Origin: Allobosea sp. Root381
GTDB lineage: Bacteria; Pseudomonadota; Alphaproteobacteria; Rhizobiales; Beijerinckiaceae
DNA: 64,000 bases
Direction of reading: 5' to 3'
Assembly (NCBI RefSeq): GCF_001429395.1
Contig: NZ_LMJT01000010.1
Location: 1-64,000 of the forward strand
Shown: piece after piece, positions 2,111-35,723 of the stretch
How positions within the stretch are numbered: position 1 is the first letter of the stretch
How the letters are laid out: each line of letters opens with the position of its first letter
Notes under the pieces: model-generated
Told to the model about the DNA's origin: nothing
Seen by the model: only the letters and a program-made list of their open reading frames with translations
The model's database searches: none
Position numbers and translations under genes: made by a program

Positions 2111-3598
2111 TCATTTCATGCAATTCGTCGATTGCTGTGTCACGATTTCATTTTCCCCAGACAAGGACTGATCATATTCAGCAAGTGCTGTCTGAGCGAT
2201 ATTGAGTCCATCAATAAGAAGCGCTTCGGCGTCACTCCGCTCCACCGCTTCAACGTAAACACGTAATTCCGGCGCGTTGCCCGATGCGCGGAAATATACC
2301 GTCGTGCCGTCGCCGAGCGTGAGACGCAGCCCATCGCGTCTGTCGCGAGCAGCGACTCCACCACGTGCGGCGAAGACTGCATCGCGATAGGCCGAGTCTC
2401 CGGCGTCGAGCCTTGCGATCAGCGCCGCGGTCTTCTCCTGCGGCACCTCCTGCAAACGGTTCGACAGAGCGACGGCGAATTTCTGCTCGGCAGCGAGTTG
2501 GCTGAGCGGCTTTTTTGCGCGCACCGCGGATGTCAGTGTGGCCAGGATCGGCAGCATCGCGTCGCGCGTCGGCAGGGCAGCGAGCTTGCGCCCTTCCCGA
2601 TTGACATCCGAGCCGAGCAGCACGCCGCCATTGGCCTCGAAGCCGACGACGAGCCGTGCACCCTCAGCCCTCGCCGCCGCCATGCCGGCAATGACATAGG
2701 GAGAACCGACCCTGGTGCGCACGACCTGCCGGAACAACCCAGGACGTTCCAGCGCCGAGTTCGAGGTCACGGGGGTCACGATCGCGTCTGCGCCCAGGAA
2801 GGCTGCCGTCAGCGCGCCGACGAGATCGCCGCGCAGGAACAGGCCCGACTCGTCCGCGACCAGCGGTCGGTCGGCGTCGCCATCGGTCGAAACGATGGCG
2901 TCCAGCGGCTGGCTGCTGGCCCAATCTCTTGCAAGCGTCGCGTCCTCCGGGCGCAGCGCCTCGGTGTCGACCGGAATGAAGCGTTCGGCACGCCCGAGCG
3001 CGACAGGCTGGGCACCGAGCGCGGCCAGCAGGTCGCAGATCACGTCGCGCCCGACCGAGGAATGCTGGTAAACGCCGACCGTCAGGCCGCGCAGCGCATC
3101 GGGGCCGAAGAAGTCGAGATAGCGCGCCCGATACGCCACCAGTGCATCATATACGCGCGCCGGGGCCGGTTCGGTGGGGAGGGCGGACAGAGCGAGGTTC
3201 TCATGCCAGGCAAGGATGCGCGCCTCGTCGGCTTTGTCGATCTCACCCTGGCTGCGATAGAATTTCAGCCCGTTGCGGTCGTCCGGGATGTGGCTGCCCG
3301 TAACCATGATGGCCGGCGCGGTCACCTGCACGGCGGCCAGGGCCAAGGCTGGCGTCGGCACGTCGCCGCAATCCACCGGGACGAGCCCGGCATCGGCGAT
3401 GGCGCGGGCACATTGTGCAGCGATCAGGGGGCTCGACGAGCGCAGATCCTGCCCAATCAGCACCTCGCCGCCGGGTCCGGCTGCGCCATCTTCATCGATC
3501 ATCGCGCAGAAGGCGCGAGCATGACTGTACACCGGCAGCCCGACCAGATCGGTCACGAGCCCGCGCAGGCCAGAGGTTCCAAATTTGAGACTTGTCAT
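2111..3598 (-). CDS. phosphomannomutase / phosphoglucomutase family protein
   Basis: Alpha-D-phosphohexomutase, 495 aa, converting hexose-6-phosphate to hexose-1-phosphate in the cytoplasm. Landmarks: GTSGLRG at residues 7-13, catalytic serine in TGSHIP (Ser102), metal site DGDADR (239-244), sugar-specificity loop GFEANGG and a C-terminal phosphate-binding RASGNAPELRVY. The start chosen is the ATG one base after the manC stop (TGA-G-ATG), so the two are translationally coupled; a longer frame to 3718 would lie inside manC. With ManC it supplies GDP-mannose from mannose-6-phosphate, probably for exopolysaccharide or LPS. Phosphoglucomutase or phosphoglucosamine activity cannot be excluded from sequence, but the manC partner favours ManB. 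Confidence 0.9.
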   Translation of the reverse strand: MTSLKFGTSGLRGLVTDLVGLPVYSHARAFCAMIDEDGAAGPGGEVLIGQDLRSSSPLIAAQCARAIADAGLVPVDCGDVPTPALALAAVQVTAPAIMVTGSHIPDDRNGLKFYRSQGEIDKADEARILAWHENLALSALPTEPAPARVYDALVAYRARYLDFFGPDALRGLTVGVYQHSSVGRDVICDLLAALGAQPVALGRAERFIPVDTEALRPEDATLARDWASSQPLDAIVSTDGDADRPLVADESGLFLRGDLVGALTAAFLGADAIVTPVTSNSALERPGLFRQVVRTRVGSPYVIAGMAAARAEGARLVVGFEANGGVLLGSDVNREGRKLAALPTRDAMLPILATLTSAVRAKKPLSQLAAEQKFAVALSNRLQEVPQEKTAALIARLDAGDSAYRDAVFAARGGVAARDRRDGLRLTLGDGTTVYFRASGNAPELRVYVEAVERSDAEALLIDGLNIAQTALAEYDQSLSGENEIVTQQSTNCMK

Positions 3599-3599
3599 C

Positions 3600-5012
3600 T
3601 CATGACCGCCTGTAAATGTCTTCGATGCGGATGATGTCGTCCTCCCCCAGATAGGAGCCGACCTGAACCTCGATGATTTCGAGCGGAATCCTGCCGGGAT
3701 TGGCCATGCGGTGGACACATCCGATCGGGAGATAGATCGACTCGTTCTCGTGCACGACGATGGTTTCCTCGTTGCGCGTCACCTCGGCGGTACCGCGGAC
3801 CACGACCCAGTGCTCGGCGCGATGAAAATGCTTTTGGAGGGAGAGAACGCCGCCGGGCTTGACCGTGATACGCTTGACCTGATGGCGTATGCCAAGATCG
3901 ATCGACAGGTATCTGCCCCAGGGTCGCTGGACCTCGCGGTGGGCTCCGGCTTCCGATTCGCCTTTGGCGGTGATGAGCGCGACCATGTCCTTGACCTTGT
4001 CGGCCTTGGACTTGGGCGTCACCAGCACGGCGTCGCGCGTCGAGATCACGGCGATATCGTCGAGGCCGATCACGGCCACGAGTGCTTCCTCCGAGCGGAT
4101 GAGATTGTTGGAGCCATCGAGCACATAGCCGCGCCCGTCGATGGCGTTGCCGTTCTCCTTCTTGTCCGACAGATCCCAGACGGCGGCCCAGCCTCCGACA
4201 TCGGACCAGCCGAAGTGGCCGGCGACGACGGCCGCTTTCTGCGTCCGTTCCATCACGGCATAGTCGATGGAGATCTTCTTCGCCGTGGCGAATGACTCAG
4301 CATCGAGAAGCAGGAAGTCGAGGTCCCGCTTGGCCTTCGCAACGGCCTCCGCCACGGGCGCGACGATCCCGGGCTCGAACGCTTCGAGCTCGGCGCGCAT
4401 CGTCGCGGCGTCGAAGATGAAATTGCCGGAATTCCAGAGATAGCCATCGAGCAGATATTGGGCGGCGCGCACCGCGTCCGGCTTCTCGACGAAGGCAGCG
4501 ACCTGCCGCGCTCCGTCGCCAAGGTCCATGCCCGGACGGATATAGCCATAGCCCGTGGCCGGATTGGTCGGCGGAATGCCGATGGTGACGATGCGCCCCT
4601 GCGCCGCGACCACGCCTGCCTGTCGGCACGTCTCGACGAAAAGCGCGCCGTCCTGGACCACTTGATCGGCGGCGAAGACGCCGACGATCGCGCCATCGTC
4701 GCGTGCAAGGGCCAGCTCCGTCGCCGTGGCGACCGCAGCCGCGGAATCGCGACGCGTGGGTTCGAGCACGATCTCCGCCGCGATCCCGATCGCCTGCAGC
4801 TGGTCCAGCACGGTGAAGCGATATTCGGCGTTGGTGACGACAATGGCATGGCCGAAAACGGATGCATCCGACAACAGTCGGATCGTGCGCTGGAAGGTCG
4901 ACTCCTGCCTCAGCAACGGGATGAACTGCTTGGGCATCGTGTCGCGCGACACCGGCCACAGCCGCGTACCCGCACCGCCGCACATCACGACAGGGATGAT
5001 CTTGGATGACAT
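3600..5012 (-). CDS. manC: mannose-1-phosphate guanylyltransferase / mannose-6-phosphate isomerase
   Basis: Type II ManC/CpsB, 470 aa. The N-terminal nucleotidyltransferase has the signature GGAGTRLWPVSR with PKQF following (residues about 12-29), FVEKPD and the YLWNSG(N)F region; the C-terminal cupin (from about 355) has VQRPWG, a metal-site QKHFHRAEHW and VHENESIYLP, the isomerase half. The usual LSLQ-HHHRAEHW motif has Phe in place of the middle His. The protein makes mannose-1-phosphate into GDP-mannose and may isomerise fructose-6-phosphate. A good AGGAG lies 9-10 bases before the ATG. First gene of a two-gene operon with the mutase. Confidence 0.93.
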   Translation of the reverse strand: MSSKIIPVVMCGGAGTRLWPVSRDTMPKQFIPLLRQESTFQRTIRLLSDASVFGHAIVVTNAEYRFTVLDQLQAIGIAAEIVLEPTRRDSAAAVATATELALARDDGAIVGVFAADQVVQDGALFVETCRQAGVVAAQGRIVTIGIPPTNPATGYGYIRPGMDLGDGARQVAAFVEKPDAVRAAQYLLDGYLWNSGNFIFDAATMRAELEAFEPGIVAPVAEAVAKAKRDLDFLLLDAESFATAKKISIDYAVMERTQKAAVVAGHFGWSDVGGWAAVWDLSDKKENGNAIDGRGYVLDGSNNLIRSEEALVAVIGLDDIAVISTRDAVLVTPKSKADKVKDMVALITAKGESEAGAHREVQRPWGRYLSIDLGIRHQVKRITVKPGGVLSLQKHFHRAEHWVVVRGTAEVTRNEETIVVHENESIYLPIGCVHRMANPGRIPLEIIEVQVGSYLGEDDIIRIEDIYRRS

Positions 5013-5762
5013 CGGTCAACGGCTCCTAGCCTCAGGGTTCTTAGGCTAACGATGCTGTTGAAAGCAACGGCCGGGGCGAAGCGGCTTCAACGGCGTGGCA
5101 AGCCCTTTTCGTTGCAAGAAGCCGGGATGACCGGTCCAAGCCCTTGCCACGGCCCAAAACTGAGTGTCACGGGTTCGGCTCCGGTGCCGCGGCTCGTGTT
5201 GTTCCAGCGCGCCTTACCATGTTGTCGTCGCGTCTTTGCCGCTGCGTTCTGCCGCGACCGACTGCAGACATATGCCCACCCTCCAAGCGAGATTACGATC
5301 TCGATTTTTCGCGAAACGGACTTGTCTGCACTGCATTACGGAGCTAATCGTCTACCTATTGAAGAATATGTATGTATAAATTCCCAAGAACAACTGCATC
5401 GATGGGATCAGATTTCGCTCAGTGTTCAAAAATTCACCTTCAAAGTATACATTCAGAACTCACTACTCGACCCGCACCAGGTTACGGCACCGCAATAAAA
5501 TGATGCACCTTAGAACTGCACTCAAACTCGATACCTTCAGCATTTCCTCCCTGTCCGCCACCTCAGCCTTTGCAACCGGTGATCCCACTGCCCATTTTTA
5601 GGCTCTAACAGCCCCCTTTCGCCTTGGCTAAGCAGCCAAAACCACCCGCTTAGCCGCTCGTTTTGACACGCACAAACTGATTTCCCCCTCGCCCGGATCA
5701 GCCCGGAGCGAGATCGACGATGCGCGCCTGTTTTCCACCTTTGGCCTGACATGGAGAGACCA
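5013..5762. other. 750-base intergenic region upstream of manC and the prophage genes
   Basis: No convincing gene is seen. The stretch 5320-5520 is clearly more AT-rich than its neighbours and contains runs such as ATATGTATGTATAAAT; it lies between the divergent manC and ERF genes and probably marks the left junction of the prophage block and holds promoters for both sides. A plus-strand open frame (5052-5498) crosses it, but its residues look random and it overlaps the manC leader, so it is not called. Confidence 0.5.
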
Positions 5763-6482
5763 ATGACGCGATTAGCCCGCAGCAACCGCCTGATTGAGGC
5801 GCCCTCGCCCATCCCGCCACCGGCACTGAGCTTGTTAAGCGCCGCATTGGCCCGCGGCGCCGATGGCGAGATGCTGGAGCGCCTGATCGGCTTCCACGAA
5901 CGCTCGCAAGCTCTTGAGGCGCGCAAAGCCTTCGAGAAGGCGCTCGCTGCAGCCAAGGCCAAGATCCCGGTGATTGTCAAAAACCGCCAGGCGATGGTGG
6001 GCCGACAGCCCTATCGCCATGAGGATCTGGCCGAGATCGTCCGCACGATCACACCGATACTGGCCCGGAACGGGCTGTCCTATCGCTTCCGTTCGCAAAC
6101 CACAGGCGCCCTCGTCACGGTGGTCTGCGTGATCTCGCATCGCGACGGCCATAGCGAAGAGAACAGCCTTTCAGCGAGCCCCGATGAGAGCGGCGAGAAG
6201 AATAGCATCCAGGCGATTGGCTCGGCCCTGACCTACCTGCAGCGGATGACGTTGAAGGCGGCCCTGGGTCTTGCCGCCTCCGATGACGATGATGGTCAGG
6301 CCGCAGGCTCATCCGCGCTGATCTCACGCCAGCAGGCGCGCGAACTGCTCGACCTGATCGAGGAAATCGGCGCCGACAAGAATGCCCTGCTGCAGTTCTT
6401 TCAGATCAAGGGCGTCACCGACCTGCCGGCAGCGCGGTTTCGGCAGGCGCTCACCATGCTCAACTCCAGGAGGAGCAACTGA
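5763..6482 (+). CDS. ERF family single-strand annealing protein
   Basis: Phage recombinase of the ERF superfamily, 239 aa, which anneals complementary single strands during phage recombination. The core runs from about residue 45: LEARKAFEKALAAAKAKIPV, then YRHEDLAEIVRTITPILARNGLSY, a conserved family block, and a GSALTYLQRMTLKAALGL helix, followed by an acidic DDDDGQA linker and a C-terminal helix region. Of two nearby ATGs (5751, 5763) the second has GGAGA at the right spacing. The stop overlaps the start of the YqaJ nuclease gene by one base (TGATG), so the two are one transcription unit forming a Red-like annealase-exonuclease pair. Confidence 0.88.
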   Translation: MTRLARSNRLIEAPSPIPPPALSLLSAALARGADGEMLERLIGFHERSQALEARKAFEKALAAAKAKIPVIVKNRQAMVGRQPYRHEDLAEIVRTITPILARNGLSYRFRSQTTGALVTVVCVISHRDGHSEENSLSASPDESGEKNSIQAIGSALTYLQRMTLKAALGLAASDDDDGQAAGSSALISRQQARELLDLIEEIGADKNALLQFFQIKGVTDLPAARFRQALTMLNSRRSN

Positions 6483-7114
6483 TGAGCAACCAGCTCGAGA
6501 TCATCGCTTGCGAGCAAGGCTCGCCCGAATGGATCCAAAGCCGCCTCGGTATCGCGACGGCCTCCGAGTTCGCCACGATCCTGACTAAAGGACGCGGCGG
6601 CGCCGAGAGCAGGACCCGCCTCAGCTATCTCTACAAGCTCGCCGGCGAACGCCTCACCGGCGAGCCGATGGACACGATCAGCACCTTCCACATGGAACGC
6701 GGCAAGCTGATGGAGGATGAAGCCCGCAGCGTCTACGCTTTCGTCACCGGGGCGGTTTGTGAGCGTGTCGGCTTCCTGCGCCGCGGGCGTGCCGGCGCCT
6801 CCCCCGATGCGCTGATCGGCCACGACGGCTTGCTTGAGATCAAGACCAAGCTGCCGCATCTAATGATCGAGACCATCCTGCGCGGCGAGTTCCCGCCTGA
6901 GCATAAGGCGCAATGCCAGGCGCAACTCTGGATCGCGGGACGCGAATGGATCGACATCGCGGTCTATTGGCCTGGCCTGCCGATCTTCATCACCCGCGCC
7001 CACCGGGACGAGAGCTATATCCGCGAGCTGGCTGAGGCGGTCGACACCTTCAACGCCGAACTCGATCTAATCGTCGACAGGGTCAAATTCTATGGCCTGG
7101 CCAAGGCGGCATGA
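6482..7114 (+). CDS. YqaJ-family viral exonuclease
   Basis: Lambda-exonuclease-like PD-(D/E)XK nuclease, 210 aa, expected to resect double-strand ends for the ERF annealase. Visible family motifs: SPEWIQSRLGIATASEF at the N-terminus, HMERGKLMEDEARSVYAF (the acidic helix), SPDALIGHDGLLEIKTK carrying the D...ExK catalytic residues (about 106-118), and QCQAQLWIAGREWIDIAVY. The length is normal for a compact phage version. It is coupled to the upstream ERF gene and overlaps the next open frame by 4 bases (ATGA-type junction at 7111-7114). Confidence 0.9.
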   Translation: MSNQLEIIACEQGSPEWIQSRLGIATASEFATILTKGRGGAESRTRLSYLYKLAGERLTGEPMDTISTFHMERGKLMEDEARSVYAFVTGAVCERVGFLRRGRAGASPDALIGHDGLLEIKTKLPHLMIETILRGEFPPEHKAQCQAQLWIAGREWIDIAVYWPGLPIFITRAHRDESYIRELAEAVDTFNAELDLIVDRVKFYGLAKAA

Positions 7115-7573
7115 TGCCGATCCGCTCGGGACCGATCCATCCATGCGGAGCGGGTCTGGACCCGAAGCGCTCCGCCACACGGCGCGAGCTCTCGCGTGCT
7201 CAGAAGGTTGCGATGATCAAGCGTGCCATGACCGGAGCAGGTCGGATCCTCTGCGAAGGCTGCGGGCTCAATATCACCGGCAAGGCGCTCGAGTTCGATC
7301 ACATCATCCCGGAAGCCCTGATCCTCGAAGAGCGCGGAGCTCGACATCTCGGACGGCCGCGTCCTCGGGCGCGACTGTTGTCACCGCCGGCCCGGCGGCA
7401 AGACGGCCACCGACCTCGCCGACATCGCTGAGGCCAAGCGGCGGGAAGCGAAGCATTTGGGCATCCGCTCCAAGCCGCGGCTGACGGGGCCAAGCTTTGT
7501 CCTGTCAGAACCCCAGCGCTCCGCCTCCCGGCCACTTAGCAAGCCAGCGGCCTGGCGCCGCGACGATCTGTGA
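7111..7573 (+). pseudogene. HNH endonuclease, frameshifted
   Basis: The first half reads AQKVAMIKRAM...CEGCGLNITGKALEFDHIIPEAL, the typical zinc-ribbon plus DH of small phage HNH nucleases. Near 7330-7338 the match moves by one base into another frame, which continues AELDISDGRVLGRDCCH, then GGKTATDLADIAEAKRREAKHLGI and ends at a TGA at 7571-7573. The second half has the second metal-binding cluster (DCCHRRPGGK) and the family tail. Read as one protein it would be about 150 aa. Either the gene is dead or one base is wrong in this sequence. It overlaps the YqaJ gene by 4 bases, so it belonged to the same phage operon. Confidence 0.72.
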
Positions 7574-7599
7574 CCCCCATTCTTCAGGAACCCATCACG

Positions 7600-7968
7600 A
7601 TGACGACCTTCTATCCCGCCATGCCTTACAAAGCCTTCGCTCAGCGGTGGCGGCACGTTGTTGGCGCGGTTCTGTTGAGCGTGGCGATCCCCGCCTGCAC
7701 GACGCGGTCCGTGATGAACTTCAACCGCTTCGATGGCCGCACCGATCAGGCGGCTGCGGCCCAGTTCCAGCAGGACGATGCGATCTGCAAGGGTGAAGTC
7801 GCCAAGGCGCAAGCCATGGCCGCGCCGATCTATATGGGACACAGTCTGGCGGACGCGATGGAAGCGGGCATGCTGGAAGGTCAACGCACCAATGCGCTGA
7901 GGCAGATCATGGTCGGCTGCATGGCGCAGCGCGGCTATTCGGTGACGATGGTGACGGTGCCCAGTTGA
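7600..7968 (+). CDS. putative small lipoprotein
   Basis: Predicted 122-aa exported protein of unknown role. A basic start (KAFAQRWR) is followed by a hydrophobic run VVGAVLLSVAIPAC that ends in a lipobox-like cysteine, so it is probably acylated. The mature part is rich in Gln, Ala and Met (AAAQFQQDDAICKGEVAKAQAMAAP) and finishes with CMAQRGYSVTMVTV, an ending seen in many short alphaproteobacterial lipoproteins. Starts at 7600 and 7621 are both possible. It sits between the phage nuclease and the convergent terminase, so it may be phage-borne (lysis or superinfection role is only a guess). Confidence 0.6.
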   Translation: MTTFYPAMPYKAFAQRWRHVVGAVLLSVAIPACTTRSVMNFNRFDGRTDQAAAAQFQQDDAICKGEVAKAQAMAAPIYMGHSLADAMEAGMLEGQRTNALRQIMVGCMAQRGYSVTMVTVPS

Positions 7969-8031
7969 ACGCCCCGCTGGACGACAGGATCGATGCTCAT
8001 CGTCCACCTCCAGGCACCTCGTCCGGGCCGG

Positions 8032-9483
8032 CTACGCGCCGGCCCCCCGAAACCGCGACTGCGGCCGTACGATCTTCTGTGGCCTAACGGGAACCACCGG
8101 CGTGCGGGCAGTCAGATACTTCAGCGCCTGGCTGGTGGCATCGACCTGGTCATCATGGCGTCCCGTCGGAAAGGCCAGCAGCTCGGAAAGGTAATCGGCA
8201 AGCCATTCGGCCTCTTGCGGCAAGAACACCTGCCCGGCCTCGAACCGCGCCGCCTGTGCCAGCAACCGCGCCGTCTTGTCGAACCGTGCGCGCTGCAGCA
8301 GCGGATAGAGCTGATGGGTCCGGCGCAGGTCCTGCGACAGCGCCCGGCCGAGCTCGGTATCCTCGATCAGCGTCGCATCGACCTCATGCTCCTCGGCAAC
8401 CGCGATCATCTTGCGCCTGAGCTCTGGGCTCTCCCAACGTCCGCGCACCACGTCCAACAGATAGTATTGCTGGCCTCGCGCGCCCCAGACGGTGCCGACC
8501 GACCAATCCGAGGTCTCCGCCAGCGTCGAGGCGGTATCCCAGGATGCGATCACCATCTCGAACCCTTCGGGCCGGTGCTCGTAAGAACGGATCCAGTCAC
8601 GCTTGATCGCATTGCCTTCCGCCGGCAGCGGGTTCTGCTGGTACTGGGCTGAGAAGTTCAGGGTCCCTAAATTTCGTTTGGTCGCCTCTAACCAGGCGAT
8701 GGATTCGCGCCCCGGATGCAGGATCTCGCCTGCCCTGCGACGATAGACCCCGTCCTGTCCCTCCCCGATGCGATAGCTCATATCCTCCATGGCGATCGCG
8801 GGGATCGACAGGACCTCCCACTCTTCCTTCTCCAGGACGTGACCGACGAGGTCGTCCTGGTGAAGCCGCTGCATCACGATGATGATGGCGCCGTTGATCC
8901 GGTCGTTCAGGCGCGAATACAGCGTCGCATCATAAAACTCGGTCACGCGGCGGCGCTCAGCCGCCGAGAGGACCGCGTCGAGTCCGTTGATGGGATCATC
9001 GATGACGATGAGATCGGCGCCGCGCCCGAGCACAGCGCCCCCGACCGAACCGGCAAAGCGCGAACCACGTTCGCTGGTCTCGATTTCGTTCTTGCGGCTG
9101 GTCTTGATTTTGAAGCCGGGAAAGAGCCGCCGGAACCAGGGGCTGATCACCACGCTGCGGAAATCCGCAGCGTGCTTGAGCGAGAGCTCGTTAGCATAGC
9201 TGACCGCCATGATCCGCTTGCGCGGATCATGGCCCATCACCCAGGCGGTATATGCGATCGTGACACAGATCGACTTGGCCGAGCGTGGCGGCACATTGAT
9301 GATGAGCCGCTTGCACTCGCCGCGCCAGACCCGCATCAACTGATAGGCAATCGCATCGATATGCCAGTTCGGCAGATAGGGCGTTCCCGGATCCAGTGTC
9401 ATGAAGCTGCGCGCAATGAAGCTCGACAGATCCTGACGCAGGATCGCATTAAGCAGCAGCCGGTCACGCATCCCAGCCTCCAC
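8032..9483 (-). CDS. phage terminase large subunit
   Basis: DNA-packaging ATPase-nuclease, 483 aa, of the terminase_6C type. The ATPase half has a Walker A-like NVPPRSAKS (about 63-71), Walker B LIVIDDP and a following coupling region MQRLHQDDLVGHVL; the C-terminal RNase H-like nuclease has ASWDTASTLAETSDWSV and LIEDTELGRAL, then FPTGRHDDQVDATSQAL. Length and motifs are complete, so the gene may still be expressed. It overlaps the preceding DUF5681 gene by 20 bases. No portal, protease or capsid gene follows; downstream the block ends in a convergent lipoprotein gene. Confidence 0.92.
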   Translation of the reverse strand: MEAGMRDRLLLNAILRQDLSSFIARSFMTLDPGTPYLPNWHIDAIAYQLMRVWRGECKRLIINVPPRSAKSICVTIAYTAWVMGHDPRKRIMAVSYANELSLKHAADFRSVVISPWFRRLFPGFKIKTSRKNEIETSERGSRFAGSVGGAVLGRGADLIVIDDPINGLDAVLSAAERRRVTEFYDATLYSRLNDRINGAIIIVMQRLHQDDLVGHVLEKEEWEVLSIPAIAMEDMSYRIGEGQDGVYRRRAGEILHPGRESIAWLEATKRNLGTLNFSAQYQQNPLPAEGNAIKRDWIRSYEHRPEGFEMVIASWDTASTLAETSDWSVGTVWGARGQQYYLLDVVRGRWESPELRRKMIAVAEEHEVDATLIEDTELGRALSQDLRRTHQLYPLLQRARFDKTARLLAQAARFEAGQVFLPQEAEWLADYLSELLAFPTGRHDDQVDATSQALKYLTARTPVVPVRPQKIVRPQSRFRGAGA

Positions 9484-9862
9484 CGGACCTGCGTTCGCGC
9501 GCGAGGAAGCGCGCGATCAGCTGTGCCTCCTCCTCGCTTGTGATCTCCGGCGTGGCTGCCTCGGAAACGGACGTCATCAAGCCGAGCAACTTGATGACAT
9601 CCTTTCGCGCCGCTGCATCGCCCTTGAGTGCGGCCTCGGTCGTCTTCTGCAGGAAGGCTTCGAGGACCGAAACTGTCCGCAGTTTGCCCTTCTTCATCAT
9701 CTGGATCGGTTCGGACATCAGCTTGGCGAACTCATCGGCCAAATTGAGTTGTGGCTTGACCTTACGGCGACCAGAGGGATTGCCGCTTCGGCCTTTCTGA
9801 AAACGGCTGTGCTGCGGCGGGTTCTTGTACCCGACAGGGGGCTGATCGTTGTTGCGAGACAT
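9464..9862 (-). CDS. DUF5681 domain protein, terminase partner
   Basis: A 132-aa basic protein with the DUF5681 N-terminal signature: VGYKNPP...SRFQKGRSGNPSGRRK at residues about 10-35. The remainder is helical (LADEFAKLMSEPIQMMKKGKL, DVIKLLGLM). This domain is found beside large terminases in alphaproteobacterial prophages and is often taken as a small-terminase-like or accessory DNA-binding protein; that role is inferred from position. It starts 15 bases after the methyltransferase stop and its end overlaps the large terminase start by 20 bases, so the three form one minus-strand operon. Confidence 0.85.
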   Translation of the reverse strand: MSRNNDQPPVGYKNPPQHSRFQKGRSGNPSGRRKVKPQLNLADEFAKLMSEPIQMMKKGKLRTVSVLEAFLQKTTEAALKGDAAARKDVIKLLGLMTSVSEAATPEITSEEEAQLIARFLARERRSGGGWDA

Positions 9863-9877
9863 ATTCGCCTCCCACCA

Positions 9878-11308
9878 TCACTGCCCGACCGCCGGCGAGC
9901 TGTGCCCACGCTGCATCGCCATCTCTGCAAAACTCTGTCCCGTCTCGGCGTGGCGCGCCTCGCGCTTGAACAGCTTCTCCCAGCGCCGGATCGCCACATC
10001 GACATAAAGCGGGTCGAGCTCCATCAAATAGCCCCGCCGCTTGGTTTTGGCCGCCGCGATCAGCGTCGTGCCGGAACCGCCGAACGGATCGAGCACGATA
10101 CCTTTCAGCTTCGAACCATCCTTGATCGCATCCATGACCATGGTGCAGGGCTTGACCGTCGGGTGAGCGGCCAGGTCCTCCATCCGTCCCCGGCCAAAGC
10201 CATTGGCACCGGCATAGCTCCAAAGCGTGGTGCGGTACCGGCCGTGGCGGCCGAGCTCGATGTTGTTGATGTGCGGCACCTTACCCTTCTTCCAGAGCGG
10301 GATCAGCTCGGTCTGCGACCGATAGAGCGAGCCCATCCCTGCATTGGTCTTGGCCCAGGTGATCACCGCCTTCAGCTCGTCGAAAGCGGCGTATCCGGCG
10401 TTGAGCATCTCGTGGAGATGCGGGCCGTCGATGCAGGTGAAGATCAGAGCTCCGTCCTGGGAAGCGGCGGCAATTTCACCGCAGACGCCCGTCAGGAACC
10501 CCCCGTACTCGGGCTTGCTCATCTCGCCCGAGGCCATCGGGAACGGGCGGTGCTTGATCTTGCCGAGCCCGCTGACATGGCCATCGATCCGAACATTGTA
10601 GGGCGGATCCGTGAAGCTCATCTGGGCGAACTCGCCGCCCATCAGCCTCTCATAGTCGGCGCGTTCGCGGGCATCGCCGCAGAGGATCCGGTGGTCGCCG
10701 AGCAGCCAGAGATCACCACGCTGCGTCACCGCTTCCGCACCGGTCGGCCCGACCGCATCAGCCGGATCGGCCTTCGGAGCCAGCGCCTCATCCGCGCTCA
10801 GGATCAGGTCGATCTGGGGCGTCTCGAACCCGGTCAGATCGACCAGGAAATCGATCTCGATCAGCGCACCCAGCTCGATCCGGAGGATATCCTGATCCCA
10901 GCCCGCGAGCTCGGCCAGGCGGTTATCAGCCAACGCGAAAGCCCGAACCTGATTGGCGTCGAGGTGGTCCAGGGAAATCGTCGGAACCGCCGACAAGCCC
11001 AGGAGCTTGGCGGCTTCAAATCGCCCGTGGCCGGCCACAATGACGCTGTCCCTGTCGACCAGGACAGGTGTCACAAAGCCGAACGCGCTGATGCTCCCAG
11101 CGATCTGATGAATCTGCTTTTTGGAATGCGTGCGAGCGTTGCGCGGCGAAGGCGTCAGCTCGCCGAGCGGCCGCTCAACGATTTTTGCTGCGAAGCACGC
11201 CACAGCGCTCGTCAACTGGGCGGCCGAGCGCTGAACAACCGTCGAGGCGGGAGGTCGGCAGCGGTGACGCACTTGAGCCGGGATGGTGGAAGTAGCATTC
11301 GAGGTCAT
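9878..11308 (-). CDS. ParB-like nuclease / DNA methyltransferase fusion
   Basis: Two-domain phage protein, about 476 aa from the ATG at 11308. The N-terminal ParB/sulfiredoxin-like domain reads LTPSPRNARTHSKKQIHQIAGSI and VIVAGHGRFEAAKLLGL. The C-terminal beta-class amino-methyltransferase has DPPYN (motif IV) and, near the C-terminus, LDPFGGSGTTLIAA (AdoMet motif I) followed by RRGYLMELD. The order DPPYN before FGGSG fits N6-adenine or N4-cytosine enzymes. Such fusions are common in alphaproteobacterial prophages, probably to protect phage DNA from host restriction. First gene of the terminase operon; an alternative start at 11347 adds 13 unremarkable residues. Confidence 0.9.
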   Translation of the reverse strand: MTSNATSTIPAQVRHRCRPPASTVVQRSAAQLTSAVACFAAKIVERPLGELTPSPRNARTHSKKQIHQIAGSISAFGFVTPVLVDRDSVIVAGHGRFEAAKLLGLSAVPTISLDHLDANQVRAFALADNRLAELAGWDQDILRIELGALIEIDFLVDLTGFETPQIDLILSADEALAPKADPADAVGPTGAEAVTQRGDLWLLGDHRILCGDARERADYERLMGGEFAQMSFTDPPYNVRIDGHVSGLGKIKHRPFPMASGEMSKPEYGGFLTGVCGEIAAASQDGALIFTCIDGPHLHEMLNAGYAAFDELKAVITWAKTNAGMGSLYRSQTELIPLWKKGKVPHINNIELGRHGRYRTTLWSYAGANGFGRGRMEDLAAHPTVKPCTMVMDAIKDGSKLKGIVLDPFGGSGTTLIAAAKTKRRGYLMELDPLYVDVAIRRWEKLFKREARHAETGQSFAEMAMQRGHSSPAVGQ

Positions 11309-12205
11309 GATCGACTCCATCTGGAAATCGATCGGATCAACGAGCACCCGCGTTACTCCTCTCCCACAGCGCGGTACGCCGTAGGTTGGGGGAGCAACGA
11401 GGGCTGCTCACTGATGTGAAATGCCTCGTTAGATGCCTCGACCCGATCAGGGTTGGGGGCTGAAGTTCGCGACGAATCGCGAACAATCTACATTTAGAAG
11501 ATGCGCGCGAAGATTGCAATGCGAGAATCAAGGTCGTAAACGGACGCTGTTTTTGTCAGCTGCCGCGTTCTTGCCCGAGCACAAGCCCTTGCTGGATGTT
11601 TCGCTGCCAGGCTCATCGATCCCTGTTTCCAAGGTCGAAATTCCCTGCCAATGCAAAATTCCTTCCCTGCTCAACGCAACAGAGTTAATGCAGCCTGAAC
11701 AGCCGCGCCTTGGTTTAACTATGTGCAAACGCACAGAATGTTTGGCCCACGGCAGCGCGTCCGCCATGGGCGGATTGGGGAATTCCGCTGATCATTCCCT
11801 GATCAATCCCTGATACCAGGGATTGAGGAGCTTCCGCGTCGGAGGCCGCTATCCTGGCAGCTCACCTGTGAACCGCCAGCGCTTCATCCTGCGGAACGCC
11901 CCCCATCAAGCGTGGGTTGGAAATCATCTACTTTGCCAATCCGGGTGCCTACTCCGGTAAGTCCTATTGTCACCCGACTTGCTTGAGGTCGCACCGCACC
12001 GGCAGGCTCCCCTCTCTGCCGTATCATTCATTGCCGGGATGCAGACGGCATGTTGTGCCCGATCCGCCGGCGCTACGATGATGCAGCGCAGGCTCGGGCC
12101 GCGCGCGATATAGGCCAGAACAATGAGCGGCCCGCCCTGTCGCGCGACAGGCGCCGGTCGACAGTTACCGCTGTTTCTGGCCTTGCCGGTGAGCAGCTTG
12201 TAGGC
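11309..12205. other. long intergenic region at the prophage right edge
   Basis: About 900 bases without a credible gene. It contains at least five copies of the hexamer/heptamer (A/T)TCCCTG between 11615 and 11812 and, at 11793-11824, a tandem repeat and hairpin listed separately. No integrase, tRNA or clear attachment-site pair was seen. Short open frames on both strands (such as 11433-11813) have no recognisable domain. The stretch most likely marks the junction between phage-derived DNA and the chromosomal hydroxy-acid oxidase locus. Confidence 0.45.
11793..11824. repeat. 11-bp tandem repeat overlapping an 8-bp-arm palindrome
   Basis: CATTCCCTGAT (11793-11803) is followed at once by CAATCCCTGAT (11804-11814). 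The second unit also forms the left arm of a perfect palindrome, AATCCCTG-ATAC-CAGGGATT (11805-11824). No T-run follows, so a simple terminator is unlikely; an operator or recombinase-related site is possible. Arrays of similar TTCCCTG/CAGGGAA motifs occur in mobile regions of alphaproteobacteria from general recollection, not from any search made here. Confidence 0.6.
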
Positions 12206-30349: not shown

Positions 30350-30470
30350 CCCGTGGCGTAAGTTTCTGTCTTGATGTTTATGGTTTAGATTTAATATAAC
30401 TTGCAGAAATAGACTTCTAGTCAATTTTTGAATTATAATAATATTAAAAGATATTATTAGTATCTCTACG
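30350..30470 (+). promoter_or_regulatory. AT-rich promoter region of the heme-use operon with palindrome
   Basis: A 100-base AT-rich island in otherwise GC-rich DNA lies directly before hutW. Within it TAATAATAT (30436-30444) and ATATTATTA (30451-30459) are perfect 9-bp arms around TAAAAG. A second, weaker dyad AGAA-6-TTCT lies near 30400. The position suits an iron- or heme-responsive operator (Fur, Irr or RirA type), but no exact consensus for any of these was matched by eye. Confidence 0.55.
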
Positions 30471-30565
30471 GCAACTTGCGCTGGCGCAAATATCTCGGCC
30501 TCTTGATCCATTACATCCGGCCCTGTCGCGCCCCACTGCCGGGGGCGCCCGTGCCGGACGCCCAG

Positions 30566-31918
30566 ATGGATATCGCCACCGACATCGGTCAGCACTTCGC
30601 CAAGATCGGTGTCGATCCGCTCAGGCGGGCCTTCCTGTCGCGCCGGGCCGTGATGCCGTTTCGGGGCAAGCGGCGGGTCGCGGCGGAGGACGTGCCGGAG
30701 CGCTGGCGGGCCCTGATGGCGGCGGCGAGCCCGCCGCGAAAGCGCCTCGTCTATCTCCACATCCCCTTCTGCGCCAATCACTGCCTCTTCTGCGGTTTCT
30801 ACCGCAACGCCTACACCGCGCCGCGCGCCGCGGATTACGTCGAGATGGTCCTGGCCGAGATCGCGCGCGAGGCCGGGGCGCCTGCGATCGCCGGCAACCC
30901 CGTCCATGCGGTCTATTTCGGCGGCGGCACGCCGAGCGCGCTGACGGCTGACGAGCTCTCCCGGCTGCTGCGCAGCGTCCGTGGCAGCCTGCCGCTCGCG
31001 CCCGACTGCGAGATCACGGTCGAGGGGCGGATCGTCCATTTCGATCCGGAGAAGATCGATGCCTGCCTGGAAGCCGGCGCGAACCGTTTCTCGATCGGCG
31101 TGCAGAGCTTCGACAGCGAGGTCAGGCGCCGGCAGGGTCGACGCTCGACGAAGCAGGAGGCAATCCGCTTTCTCGAGGATCTGCGGGCGCGCGACCGTGC
31201 CGCGGTGGTGATCGACCTGATCTACGGCTTGCCGGGCCAGAGCCCCGAGATCTGGCGCCAGGACCTGGAAACCGCCGCGGCGCTCGAGCCCGACGGCATC
31301 GATCTCTACGGGCTGAACGTCATTCCCGGCACACCGCTGTTCACGGCCATCGCGGCCGGCAAATTCCCGACCGCCTCCCGCCTCGACGATCTCGGCCCCT
31401 TCTACGAAGCCGGCGCGGCCTTCTTCCGGCGCCGGAACTGGCGGCAGGTCAGCAACAACCACTGGGCGCGCACGACGCGCGAGCGGAACCTGTACAATCT
31501 CCTGATCAAGGACGGGGCGGATTGCCTGGCCTATGGCTCAGGCGCGGGCGGTTCGATCGGCCAGACCAGCTACGCGCTGTCGGGCGACATCGAGCTCTAT
31601 GCCGCGGATATCGGCGCCGGCGCCAAGCCTATCGGGATGATGCTGGAATCCGACGGGCTCGAACTCCTGCGCAACCGCGTGACGGCGGGATTCGAGGTCG
31701 GCCATCTCGACCTCGCCGGGCTCGACAGCGCGGCATCGACGCCCGTCACGCCCCTCGTCGCGCCCCTGCTGGCGCAGTGGCAGAAGGCCGGCCTGCTGAC
31801 CTTCGATGACGGCGTCGTCGAACTCAAGGTCGCCGGCCGCTTCTGGTACGGCAACCTGATCAGCGCCTTCCACGACATCCTGAACGACAGACTGCTCCCC
31901 AGGCGGGAAGCGGCCTGA
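30566..31918 (+). CDS. hutW: HutW/ChuW-type heme-utilisation radical SAM enzyme
   Basis: HemN-like radical SAM protein, about 450 aa from the ATG at 30566 (in-frame GTG 30551 and TTG 30476 are alternatives). The iron-sulfur motif is CANHCLFC within YLHIPFCANHCLFCGFYRN (CxxxCxxC). AdoMet-binding YFGGGTPSAL, ANRFSIGVQSFD and VVIDLIYGLPGQ follow, and the C-terminal half has NNHWARTTRERNLYNLL and GSGAGGSIG. The HutX and ChuY-like genes just downstream identify it as the heme-operon class rather than HemN. ChuW of enteric bacteria opens heme anaerobically to a linear tetrapyrrole by methyl transfer; that activity is known for the family and inferred here. Confidence 0.88.
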   Translation: MDIATDIGQHFAKIGVDPLRRAFLSRRAVMPFRGKRRVAAEDVPERWRALMAAASPPRKRLVYLHIPFCANHCLFCGFYRNAYTAPRAADYVEMVLAEIAREAGAPAIAGNPVHAVYFGGGTPSALTADELSRLLRSVRGSLPLAPDCEITVEGRIVHFDPEKIDACLEAGANRFSIGVQSFDSEVRRRQGRRSTKQEAIRFLEDLRARDRAAVVIDLIYGLPGQSPEIWRQDLETAAALEPDGIDLYGLNVIPGTPLFTAIAAGKFPTASRLDDLGPFYEAGAAFFRRRNWRQVSNNHWARTTRERNLYNLLIKDGADCLAYGSGAGGSIGQTSYALSGDIELYAADIGAGAKPIGMMLESDGLELLRNRVTAGFEVGHLDLAGLDSAASTPVTPLVAPLLAQWQKAGLLTFDDGVVELKVAGRFWYGNLISAFHDILNDRLLPRREAA

Positions 31919-31962
31919 CGCCGTTCCAGCGACTTCATCACAACGGAAAACGAGACGAGACC

Positions 31963-32496
31963 ATGCAGACTTCCGATCATGCCGCGAAACTCGATCGCGT
32001 CCGGCAGGCGCTGGCGCAGAAGCCCGACGGCATCCTCGAACAGGTGGCGGCGGAGCACGGCGTCCCGCTCCAGGCGGTGATCGAACGCGTCCCCGGAGAT
32101 GGCACGTCGCAGATCGACGGCGCGCATTTCGTCGATGTGCTGACCGACATTGCCAGCTGGGGCGACATCACCTTCATCTGCCATTCGAAGGATGCGGTGG
32201 TCGAGTTCTCCGGCCCGGTGCCGAACGGCAAGATCGGGCACGGCATGTACAATCTTCACGGCGCCGGGGGAGGCCTCAGCGGCCATCTGCGTCACGAGAA
32301 CTGCAAGGCGATCTTCTTCGTGCGGCGACCCTTCATGGGCGTGGACACGCTGTCCGTGCAGTTCTTCAACGCCGAGGGCGAGGCGATCTTCAAGATCTAT
32401 GTCGGCCGCGACGCGCAGCGCCAGCTGAAGGCGGAGCAGGTCGAGCGCTTCGCCCGGCTCGAGCGCCGCTTTCCGGCGAGCGCGAAGGGCCTTTGA
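31963..32496 (+). CDS. hutX: heme utilisation cytosolic carrier HutX/ChuX
   Basis: 177-aa member of the ChuX/HutX family that carries heme in the cytoplasm. Visible blocks: LAQKPDGILEQVAAEHGVPL near the start, FVDVLTDIASWGDITFICHSKDAVVEF, NGKIGHGMYNLHG, LSGHLRHENCKAIFFVRRPFMG and SVQFFNAEGEAIFKIYVGRD (each read in parts). The hydrophobic/basic pocket segment GxGYYNL-like is GMYNLH here. It lies 44 bases after hutW and 1 base before the reductase gene, so one operon. Confidence 0.92.
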   Translation: MQTSDHAAKLDRVRQALAQKPDGILEQVAAEHGVPLQAVIERVPGDGTSQIDGAHFVDVLTDIASWGDITFICHSKDAVVEFSGPVPNGKIGHGMYNLHGAGGGLSGHLRHENCKAIFFVRRPFMGVDTLSVQFFNAEGEAIFKIYVGRDAQRQLKAEQVERFARLERRFPASAKGL

Positions 32497-32497
32497 G

Positions 32498-33184
32498 ATG
32501 CGACCGCTGCTGATCTTCGGCGCGACCAGGGGCGTCGGCCTCGAACTGGGGCGGCAGGAGCGCCAGGGTGGACGGCGGGTCTTCGCCTTTGTGCGGCCTG
32601 GGTCTGAAAGCGGGCCCCTGTCGGATCTCGGCGTCGAGATCGTTACCGGCGATGCGCTCGATCGCGAGACCGTCGCGGCGGCCTTCGGGCTCGTTCCGGA
32701 AGGCGCGGAAGTGGTCTCGACCATCGGCGGGCGGGCGGCGGACGGCCGGCGGGCCGATGACGAGGGCAATCTCAACCTGATCACCGAGGCGCAGCGCGCG
32801 GGAGGTATCGCGCGCTTCGTCCTCGTCACCTCGATCGGCTGCGGCGAGATGGCGCCGTTCCGCTCCGCGCGCGCGATCGCGGTCTTCGGCGAGGCGGTCG
32901 ACGCCAAGACGAAGGCGGAGGAAGCCCTGCGCGCCAGCAGCCTCGCCTGGACGATCATCCGGCCCGGCGGGCTGCTCTCGGAGCCGGCGACGGGGCAGGG
33001 TATCCTCTCCACCGATGCGCGGATGCACGGCTTCATCCATCGCTCCGACGTGGCCGAGCTGATCCGCCGCGTGCTGCGCGACCCCGCCACGATCGGCGGC
33101 GCTTTCGCCGCCGTCGATGCCGGCAGCGCCCGCACCGTCAATCCCGTCGAGCCCTTTCCGCTGGCCGGCGCGCCGGCACGCTGA
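32498..33184 (+). CDS. NAD(P)H-binding reductase, ChuY-like
   Basis: 228-aa short-chain/NmrA-like Rossmann protein. GATRGVGLELGRQ (TGxxGxxG-like, residues 8-20) is the nucleotide site, then VVSTIGGRAAD, FVLVTSIGCGE with the conserved Ser, and TIIRPGGLLSEPATG. It begins 1 base after the hutX stop. In enteric bacteria chuY lies with chuW and chuX and encodes an NADPH reductase of the linear tetrapyrrole that ChuW makes; the same order and fold here support the same role, but sequence alone does not prove it. Confidence 0.78.
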   Translation: MRPLLIFGATRGVGLELGRQERQGGRRVFAFVRPGSESGPLSDLGVEIVTGDALDRETVAAAFGLVPEGAEVVSTIGGRAADGRRADDEGNLNLITEAQRAGGIARFVLVTSIGCGEMAPFRSARAIAVFGEAVDAKTKAEEALRASSLAWTIIRPGGLLSEPATGQGILSTDARMHGFIHRSDVAELIRRVLRDPATIGGAFAAVDAGSARTVNPVEPFPLAGAPAR

Positions 33185-33238
33185 CGAGGCGGCGACGCCG
33201 CCCCGGCCCATGCCGAGACCCACGAAGGGAACGATGCG

Positions 33239-33622
33239 ATGAATGCTCAGATCCTGATGGTCGTGCTGACCACGATGTCCGGTGGCGGCCTCTCATCGGC
33301 CTTCGTCGGGACGGGAACCCTGACCGAGTGTCAGGAGCGGCTCGAGCGCGTGCGCCTGATCATAAACCAGGGCAGCGGGGCGGGTCCCTCCAGCCTCGCC
33401 AGATCGGGCTGCTTCTCGTCCGCGCAGTCCTTCGAGGATTTCAGCCACGGCCTGCCGGAGGACGCGCCATCCTACGTCTACCGGGTCGTGCTCTCGGGCG
33501 AGCGCGCGACCATGACGAAACATGACAGCGCGGCCGAATGCCTGCGGGCCGCCGCCTCCGGCGAAACCGGGGACCAGTACTGCACGCAGTCCAGGCAGAA
33601 TTTCAGAGAGAACGCCCGATGA
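33239..33622 (+). CDS. small cysteine-containing hypothetical protein in heme locus
   Basis: 127 aa, no family recognised. The N-terminus (NAQILMVVLTTMSGGG) is a weak signal-like hydrophobic stretch; four cysteines (TECQE, SGCFS, AECLR, QYCTQ) could form two disulfides in the periplasm. It lies between the reductase and the TonB receptor and overlaps the receptor start by 4 bases, so it belongs to the operon. A periplasmic role linked to heme uptake is a guess from position only. Confidence 0.6.
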   Translation: MNAQILMVVLTTMSGGGLSSAFVGTGTLTECQERLERVRLIINQGSGAGPSSLARSGCFSSAQSFEDFSHGLPEDAPSYVYRVVLSGERATMTKHDSAAECLRAAASGETGDQYCTQSRQNFRENAR

Positions 33623-35723
33623 GATCGCGAAACCTGCCCCTCCTCGCCCTGCTGGCGAGCGTCTCGCCCTGCGCGCTCGCCCAGGCGGAGGAGGTGACCT
33701 TCCTAGACACCATCACCGTGCTTGGCACGCGTACCGCCATGCCCGTGCGCGACAATCCGCGCTCGGTCAGCGTCATCGACCAGGCCACGATCGAGCGCCG
33801 GGCGCCGGAGAGCATAGCCGAACTGCTGCGCGACGTGCCCGGCGTCCAGGTTGCGGATGAATCCGTCGCCGGCATGAAGCGCGTCCGGATCCGCGGCGAG
33901 TCCTCGCGGCGCGTGACGATCCTGGTCGACGGGCAGGAGATCACCGATCACAGCACGTATGGCACGCCTCTGCTGGTCGATCCGGCCGGGATCGAGCGTA
34001 TCGAGGTGGTCCGTGGGCCGTCCTCCGTGCTCTTCGGCGCCAAGGCGATCGGCGGCGTGGTCAACATCGTGACCAAGCGAGGGGCCGACAAGCCGATCCA
34101 GTTCGAGACAGGCGGCAGCTACTATTCGGCGAGCGAGGGCTGGCAAGGTTTTGGAGCCGTTTCCGGCACGCTCGGCAATTTCGATTATCGCTTCTCCGGC
34201 GGCGCCGACCGCCATTCCGACCGCAGCGTGGCGAAGAGCCGCTGGGCGCCGACCGGCAAGCTCGAGGACACCGCGTTCCGGAACGACAATCTCTATGCCC
34301 ATCTCGGCTACAGGTTCGGAGCCGACAACAACCACTACCTGGCAATGAAGCTGGAACGGCACCGGCTGGAGAGCGAGGGCTGGCCGGGCCGGTCGCCGGG
34401 CAGGACTTCAGGATCAACCTGCCCCGGCGCGACCGGACCAAGGTCGGGCTCTTCTACGATGTCGACAACATCAGCGCGACGATCGCGAAGATCCACGCCG
34501 ACACCTATGTCCAGACCATCGATCGCCTGTTCGAGAACAGGGTGACGGTCCGCTCCGCGGGCGGCCGCAGCGTCGCGGTGAATTCGACCTCGGACGACCG
34601 CATCAGCAATATCGGCGGCAACTTCCAGATCGACCTGACGGCCTTCGACCAGCACCGCACGATTCTCGGGCTGCAGTTCCTTGCCGACAAGCTCGACACG
34701 AAGAAGGGCAGCACCACGGTGATGACGGGCTACGCGCCGCGCCCGGTCACGACCGCCGGCAGGAGCCGCGACAAGGCCAGCATCAACACGGCCTCTGTCT
34801 ATGTCCAGGACGAATGGACGCTGCCCTATGACTTCAAGTTCACGGCGGGCGCGCGTCTCTATCACACCCGCACATCCCTCGACGAAACCACCGTCGCCGC
34901 CAGGGGCAACCTGCCGTCCAAGGACGATACGGCGGCGGTCAAGTCCTTCGGGCTGACCTGGTCGGGCCTCACCAATACCGTGCTGCGCGCCAGCTATTCG
35001 GAGGGTTACATCACGCCGACGCTGCTGCAGATGTTCAGCTCGACCACGGCGGGCGGCCAGGGCGTCACCTATGGCAACCCGGCGCTCAAGCCGGAGACGT
35101 CCCGCAATATCGAAGCCGGCGTCCGCTACGAGCATAACGGACTGGTTCTCGATGCCGCGGCCTTCCTGGCCAGGTCGAAGGACTATATCGGCACCACGCG
35201 CTGCCTTTCGGTCGGCGCGGCCTGCGTCACGGCCGCGACCGCCTCGAGCGCCGCAAGCTATTATGTCAACGCCGACCAGGCCACGAGCTACGGCCTGGAA
35301 CTCGTGGCCGAATACAATATCACGGATACCGGCTTTACGCCCTATGCCTCGGCGGCGCTGATCCGCCGCGAGCTGGAATACGCGACCTTCTCGACCTTCA
35401 ACTCCGATACGCCACTGCTGAGCGGCCGCTTCGGCCTGCGCTATGAGGGCAACTGGCAGTCGCTGCCGTTCTGGACCGACCTCTATGTGCGCGCCGCCAG
35501 CGGCAGCCGCCAAACCTATCAGGGGACGGCCGGGCTGGTGACGGATTCGGTCCCGAGCTGGGCCACGCTGAACCTGGCTCTGGGCACGAATTTCGGATCG
35601 AACGGCCGCTACTCGCTCGCCGTCGCGGTCAACAACATCCTCGATACGCCCTACAGGCCGACGCTGGGCGAGCTGCCCGGCCCCGGACGCAGCGTCGAGC
35701 TGACCGCGAAGATGACGTTCTGA
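33619..35723 (+). pseudogene. TonB-dependent heme/hemoglobin-type receptor, one frameshift
   Basis: Outer membrane receptor, about 700 aa if read across one shift. Frame 1 (from ATG 33619) gives a signal peptide ending LAQAEE, the TonB box region VTFLDTITVLGTR, a full plug (RDVPGVQVADES, VLVDGQEI-like, RIEVVRGPSSVLFGAKAIGGVVNIVTKRG in parts) and the first strands, up to ESEGW near 34383. The match then continues one base earlier in another frame (GPVAGQDFRINLPRRD...) through the whole barrel to SVELTAKMTF, ending in the expected C-terminal Phe. No other defect is seen, so this is either a very recent pseudogene or a base-call error. Last gene of the hut operon. Confidence 0.85.

Follow-up and report, generated by a model that had tools for sequence, protein, structure and literature searches.

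The anaerobic breakdown of heme was elucidated in enteric pathogens and in bacteria of the oral cavity. In the ChuW-ChuX-ChuY system, ChuY is the reductase of the product that ChuW forms by opening heme (PMC10035031, PMC10404700). ChuW-type loci have also been described in alphaproteobacteria: Rhodobacter capsulatus has rcc00151 (hemN1), and Hyphomicrobium denitrificans has Hden_0599-0601 (PMC6395792, PMC12423496). Here we describe a heme locus of Allobosea sp. Root381, located within the first 64,000 nucleotides of contig NZ_LMJT01000010.1 (hereafter the window). We are largely confident that it represents a ChuW-ChuX-ChuY-type heme-iron operon, probably acquired horizontally, under oxygen control and equipped with a small accessory protein. 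The core of such an operon is not new, because alphaproteobacterial ChuW-type loci had already been found. What is new is a family of small proteins linked to the heme receptor, together with a likely control by oxygen. In these environmental alphaproteobacteria, anaerobic heme breakdown is patchily distributed and probably mobile.

Identity of the predicted heme-opening genes

The original prediction, made from the sequence alone, had placed HutW, HutX, a reductase in the ChuY position, a small protein with four cysteines and a TonB receptor in one direction. All five genes were indeed found on the + strand, at 30,566-35,723, but the receptor gene turned out to be split over two frames. The gaps between the genes, in gene order, are 44, 1, 54 and -4 bases, a spacing that appears operon-like. 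The features are as follows:

30476..30489, + strand: FixK/FNR-type palindrome TTGCGCTGGCGCAA, 90 bases before the HutW start (match to TTG[AC]-N6-[TG]CAA)
30566..31918, + strand: hutW/chuW, predicted class C radical SAM (S-adenosylmethionine) methyltransferase (anaerobilin synthase), 450 amino acids (TIGR04107, tree, CX3CX2C)
31963..32496, + strand: hutX/chuX, predicted cytosolic heme carrier, 177 amino acids (TIGR04108, PF06228)
32498..33184, + strand: chuY, homologue of the NAD(P)H-dependent anaerobilin reductase, 228 amino acids (PF13460, matches to ChuY/ShuY in the PDB)
33239..33622, + strand: small four-cysteine protein of an unnamed family, 127 amino acids (20-sequence alignment)
33619..34545, + strand: TonB-dependent heme-type receptor, first part with plug and start of the barrel (plug PF07715)
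34542..35723, + strand: TonB-dependent receptor, second part with the barrel, in another frame (PF00593, 2.1e-45)

The start of HutW was set at the ATG at 30,566 by comparison with relatives; the matches to Shinella (L049) and to L051 begin there too. The TTG at 30,476, which the list of open reading frames gives as the start, coincides with the regulatory box. In the family model search, HutW scored 530 bits against TIGR04107, for which the cut-off is 400. It carries the radical SAM motif CX3CX2C as CANHCLFC at residue 69, and GGGTP at residue 119.

A tree of 47 proteins with 200 bootstrap trees united the 19 HutW/ChuW sequences in a single clade with one change (support 100/100, in all 200 bootstrap trees). 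This clade holds the window protein, E. coli ChuW (L138) and Vibrio HutW (L102), and the HemN- and HemW-type sequences, two from the same genome among them, fall outside it. Within the clade, the window protein groups with Shinella and two further Rhizobiales loci (support 100/99). Long branches were seen for L034, L023 and L102; they do not affect this placement.

These results leave almost no room for the alternative that the protein is a further HemN coproporphyrinogen dehydrogenase or a HemW-type heme chaperone, in a locus for heme synthesis. The superfamily is shared, and HutW does score, at a lower level, against the HemW (139 bits) and HemN (133 bits) models. Against this alternative stand the TIGR04107 score, the single HutW clade, the company of HutX, a ChuY homologue and a TonB receptor, and the separate presence of HemN/HemW-like genes in the genome. 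Family scores and tree together led us to reject it. Hence, the radical SAM protein is a member of ChuW/HutW, and heme opening would be its activity. In older annotations, some genes of this kind may still carry the name hemN, which was also given to rcc00151.

The two genes that follow agree with this assignment. HutX scored 209 bits against TIGR04108 (cut-off 110) and matched PF06228 at 1.7e-37; by family, it is a predicted cytosolic heme carrier. The third gene lies directly after HutX in the HutW operon, and its product matches PF13460 and has GATRGVG at residue 8. Its best matches in the PDB are ChuY (5guy, 8e-34) and ShuY (5ffq, 1e-33), and the next best reaches 1e-10. It is a ChuY homologue and would be an NAD(P)H-dependent anaerobilin reductase. 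The ChuW-ChuX-ChuY-like identity proposed for the locus is therefore upheld on three counts: HutW and HutX score above their family cut-offs, the radical SAM phylogeny separates HutW from HemN and HemW, and the nearest solved relatives of the reductase are ChuY and ShuY.

Receptor and proposed heme uptake

The receptor of the window belongs to a clade that we assign to heme uptake because of its gene context in other genomes. In L158, HutW, HutX, receptor, small protein, HmuT, HmuU and HmuV are collinear (2972-11487) with a receptor of the same clade, the fullest form of the heme cluster seen. Receptors of this clade also adjoin HmuTUV in L156 and L157. A Providencia plasmid carries the operon receptor-HmuT-HutW-HutX-ChuY-HmuUV, where the receptor is a more distant relative. 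The plug histidine (TDH, in TDH-STYG) is invariant in 13/13 members of the clade and in the window, and lies a few residues from that of ChuA. Scored separately, the two halves of the window receptor gave 107 and 109 bits against TIGR01785 (cut-off 317), and 95 and 120 bits against TIGR01786 (cut-off 324). A receptor related to this clade was also seen on an E. coli conjugative plasmid (L105 4896-7004), where no other annotated heme genes lie nearby.

Three observations weigh against heme uptake by the locus as it stands. First, no conserved histidine lies between the FRAP and NPNL motifs in the receptor clade or in the window, while ChuA has one. Second, HmuTUV is absent from the operon and from the window, as had been predicted. 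Third, the reading frame of the receptor is interrupted in this assembly. Alignment with the intact L051 relative stops at 34,392 and restarts at 34,398 in another frame, which puts the frame change at about 34,393-34,397; the open reading frames of the two parts are 33619-34545 and 34542-35723. Plug and barrel are both present, yet not in one open frame, while the relatives are intact and about 720 amino acids long. Shinella daejeonensis JCM 16236 is one strain with an intact receptor. If the frame break is real, uptake via this receptor may be lost in this strain.

The break raises the possibility, which we consider the less probable one, of a decaying locus that was acquired and then lost its receptor through the frame change, so that heme is no longer imported by it. 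The intact genes of the relatives would fit such decay, as would the lack of HutW in 15 sampled congeners. However, the other four genes of the locus are intact, and one mistake in the sequencing or assembly of this 45-contig draft would give the same picture. Moreover, other TonB receptors could supply heme.

The search for the inner-membrane transporter elsewhere in the genome was successful. FecCD-type permeases occur at eight strong places. One of them, on contig G000:C42 near 132 kb (L087 6574-10609), is a HmuTUV-like cluster in which a substrate-binding protein and an ATPase flank the permease in HmuTUV order. A second HutX-like gene is divergent from this cluster, and PF05171 matches the same place.

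With hmuTUV outside the operon, and with the HutW loci L050 and L052 lacking such a receptor nearby, one might argue that the operon serves heme detoxification or the recycling of the cell's own heme at low oxygen instead of the uptake of outside heme. This seems improbable to us, since the receptor is co-oriented with the operon and its first 4 bases fall within the small gene, and since receptor, HutWX and HmuTUV are collinear in relatives.

For the operon as a pathway for outside heme, we infer the following route. Heme would cross the outer membrane via the TonB-dependent receptor and would be carried into the cytosol by HmuTUV, whose genes lie at another place in the genome. There, HutX would hold it. 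At low oxygen, a FixK/FNR-type regulator would switch the operon on. The gene set could then open heme and release its iron without oxygen, and ChuY would reduce the anaerobilin using NAD(P)H. An accessory of the receptor or heme-uptake module, most likely one that hands over heme or iron, would be the small four-cysteine protein. The sequence itself shows which genes are present and in what order, the linkage of the small family, the box, hmuTUV at its other site and the break in the receptor, whereas the reaction, the path of the substrate, the response to oxygen and the role of the small protein are inferences.

The small four-cysteine protein

Contrary to the original prediction, which knew of no counterpart, the small protein has homologues that form an unnamed family. 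A single-sequence search found them in 14/397 genomes of the order, the window's own genome counted. Named loci with homologues are Shinella, L051, the Cereibacter and Paracoccus plasmids, and Pseudorhodobacter. A class-level search with the small-protein profile matched the window alone. In plasmids, tblastn gave no match with the window protein and three with the Cereibacter member. Stray single low-score matches, one per member, were disregarded in the family searches. Searches of Pfam, NCBIfam and PHROGs assigned the protein to no family, and the PDB contains no relative of it by sequence.

The family is strongly linked to one heme-receptor clade. In the same set of 397 genomes, the receptor clade occurs in 12, and independent searches placed the small protein in 8/12 receptor genomes versus 6/385 others (Fisher p ~1e-10). 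Adding two small genes found by profile beside the receptor raises this to 10/12 (p 2e-14). These p-values are too small, as the genomes are related and the window's own is among the eight. The small gene is adjacent to the receptor or in the same operon in 8 of the 12 receptor genomes, apart from it in 2, and not found in 2. The gene orders seen are HutW-X-Y-small-receptor, receptor-small, receptor-small-HutW and receptor-small-HmuTUV. This variety argues for a kept association of small protein and receptor, and the link is strong enough to allow a direct test.

A point against a dedicated heme role is that some family members lie beside EamA, LysE, ABC-ATPase or decarboxylase genes, where this receptor is lacking. 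One such gene, in Pseudorhodobacter (L106 5959-7117), stands after a decarboxylase gene and tail to tail with a gene for a Crp/FNR-type regulator. It is possible, but we think doubtful, that the small protein is a general one (e.g., thiol- or metal-binding) that sits beside the receptor and is unrelated to heme. The two receptor genomes that lack it point the same way. Conversely, its enrichment in receptor genomes, and an adjacency that recurs across two bacterial orders and several arrangements of the genes, argue against this explanation.

The cysteines of the window protein are at positions 31, 58, 101 and 115. In the 20-member alignment, C31, C58, C115 and Q120 never vary, and the conservation of C101, H70 and S118 is almost complete; in one member found later, F replaces C115. 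A Sec-exported protein was considered and rejected. The net charge of residues 1-8 is not positive in 18/20 members, so that a positive n-region is missing, and a beta strand is predicted for residues 4-12, with residue 4 as its start in both structural models. The protein had been called periplasmic-type, a label that these features do not bear out. A Sec-type signal thus appears to be absent, and export could follow another route.

Two AlphaFold models of the family, with a predicted local distance difference test (pLDDT) of 80.5 (AlphaFold 2, window protein) and 86.5 and three sequences each, agree with one another. Both show two beta-beta-alpha-beta units. In each unit, the helix starts with a cysteine and the final strand contains another, which suggests the cysteine pairs C31-C58 and C101-C115. 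Foldseek searches with the models returned nothing at E < 0.001 in PDB or BFVD. The top rows of VIA-align were chlorite dismutase-like for both models, followed by DyP peroxidases for the second. Their Z scores, 4.0-4.6 across 103-110 residues, are below the level that the tool calls trustworthy. The models therefore give a hint of likeness to the CDE superfamily, the heme-binding fold of chlorite dismutase, DyP and EfeB. Tentatively, the protein may found a new accessory family for heme or iron handling, at the service of a single TonB heme-receptor clade of Rhizobiales and Rhodobacterales. With a minimal duplicated beta-beta-alpha-beta fold, weakly CDE-like, it would pass heme, ferrous iron or anaerobilin from the receptor or carrier to HutW.

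Probable oxygen control

Boxes bound by FixK/FNR-type regulators have the form TTG[AC]-N6-[TG]CAA. The box TTGCGCTGGCGCAA upstream of HutW fits this form, with a chance of 0.009 for this 250-base stretch. Similar boxes occur at -61 to -85 before HutW in L049, L050, L051, L052 and L083. In total, 6/7 loci of the HutW subclade of the window have a FixK/FNR-type box, at a chance of 1-4% per locus, and oxygen control of the operon is therefore likely. A near-identical box is common to three of the loci, so the support from the boxes is good yet not independent. Crp/FNR-type regulators are present in the genome.

A published FnrL site, TTGCGCAGGATCAA, precedes RSP0317, the counterpart of rcc00151 in R. 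sphaeroides (PMC4634722). The ChuW homologue rcc00151 itself is induced in anaerobic phototrophic cells of R. capsulatus (PMC6395792). A literature search for HutW with FNR returned nothing relevant by title and opening of the abstract.

Some findings count against oxygen control. L053 (Myxococcaceae) and the majority of the HutW loci that are more distantly related lack the box, and its motif was picked after the sequence had been inspected. Against the overall explanation, no Nar-type nitrate reductase scored above the cut-off in the genome, which bears on how far the bacterium would grow without oxygen.

Control by an iron-rhodo-box-like site (TGA-N9-TCA) is not claimed for the operon, as the window has no such site. 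In L049 and L051, sites of this kind lie ~105 bases before HutW, beside the FixK/FNR-type box; there, the pairing would couple iron and oxygen control.

Distribution and origin

HutW is rare. Scores above the family cut-off were obtained in 4/248 genomes of the family and 2/385 genomes of the class sample, and not in the 15 other sampled congeners. In six congeners, no more than a few hundred bases lie between coaBC and a sequence that is found at 63.3-64 kb in the window. In the window, ~33 kb (30250-63316) separate coaBC from this sequence, and the heme locus begins the stretch. Its part at 37.8-45.2 kb matches a stretch sited elsewhere in the congeners, and for 30.3-37.8 kb the congener stretches compared offered no counterpart. 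The comparison of the coaBC flanks places the heme locus at the border of a rearrangement or insertion. The heme operon was probably acquired horizontally.

Comparison with known systems

One of the closest known counterparts is ChuW-ChuX-ChuY of E. coli O157:H7, which has the same three proteins in identical order. Identity to an E. coli chu locus is 47% for HutW, 42% for HutX and 44% for ChuY. Unlike the E. coli chu genes, the window operon lacks ChuS and HmuTUV, has a receptor of another clade, and adds the small four-cysteine gene and the FixK/FNR-type box. HutWXZ of Vibrio shares homologues of HutW and HutX (36% identity each). However, Vibrio has HutZ and no ChuY, whereas ChuY takes that place in the window.

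As for the alphaproteobacterial loci, the consulted sections on rcc00151 and Hden_0599-0601 make no mention of the small protein (PMC6395792, PMC12423496). On the HutW-bearing plasmids of Cereibacter azotoformans and Paracoccus methylovorus, it is annotated as hypothetical only. These plasmid loci resemble the window in that receptor, small protein, HutW, HutX and reductase stand in one block. They differ in gene order, which is receptor-small-HutW or has HutW first, and in Cereibacter HmuTUV is divergent from the block.

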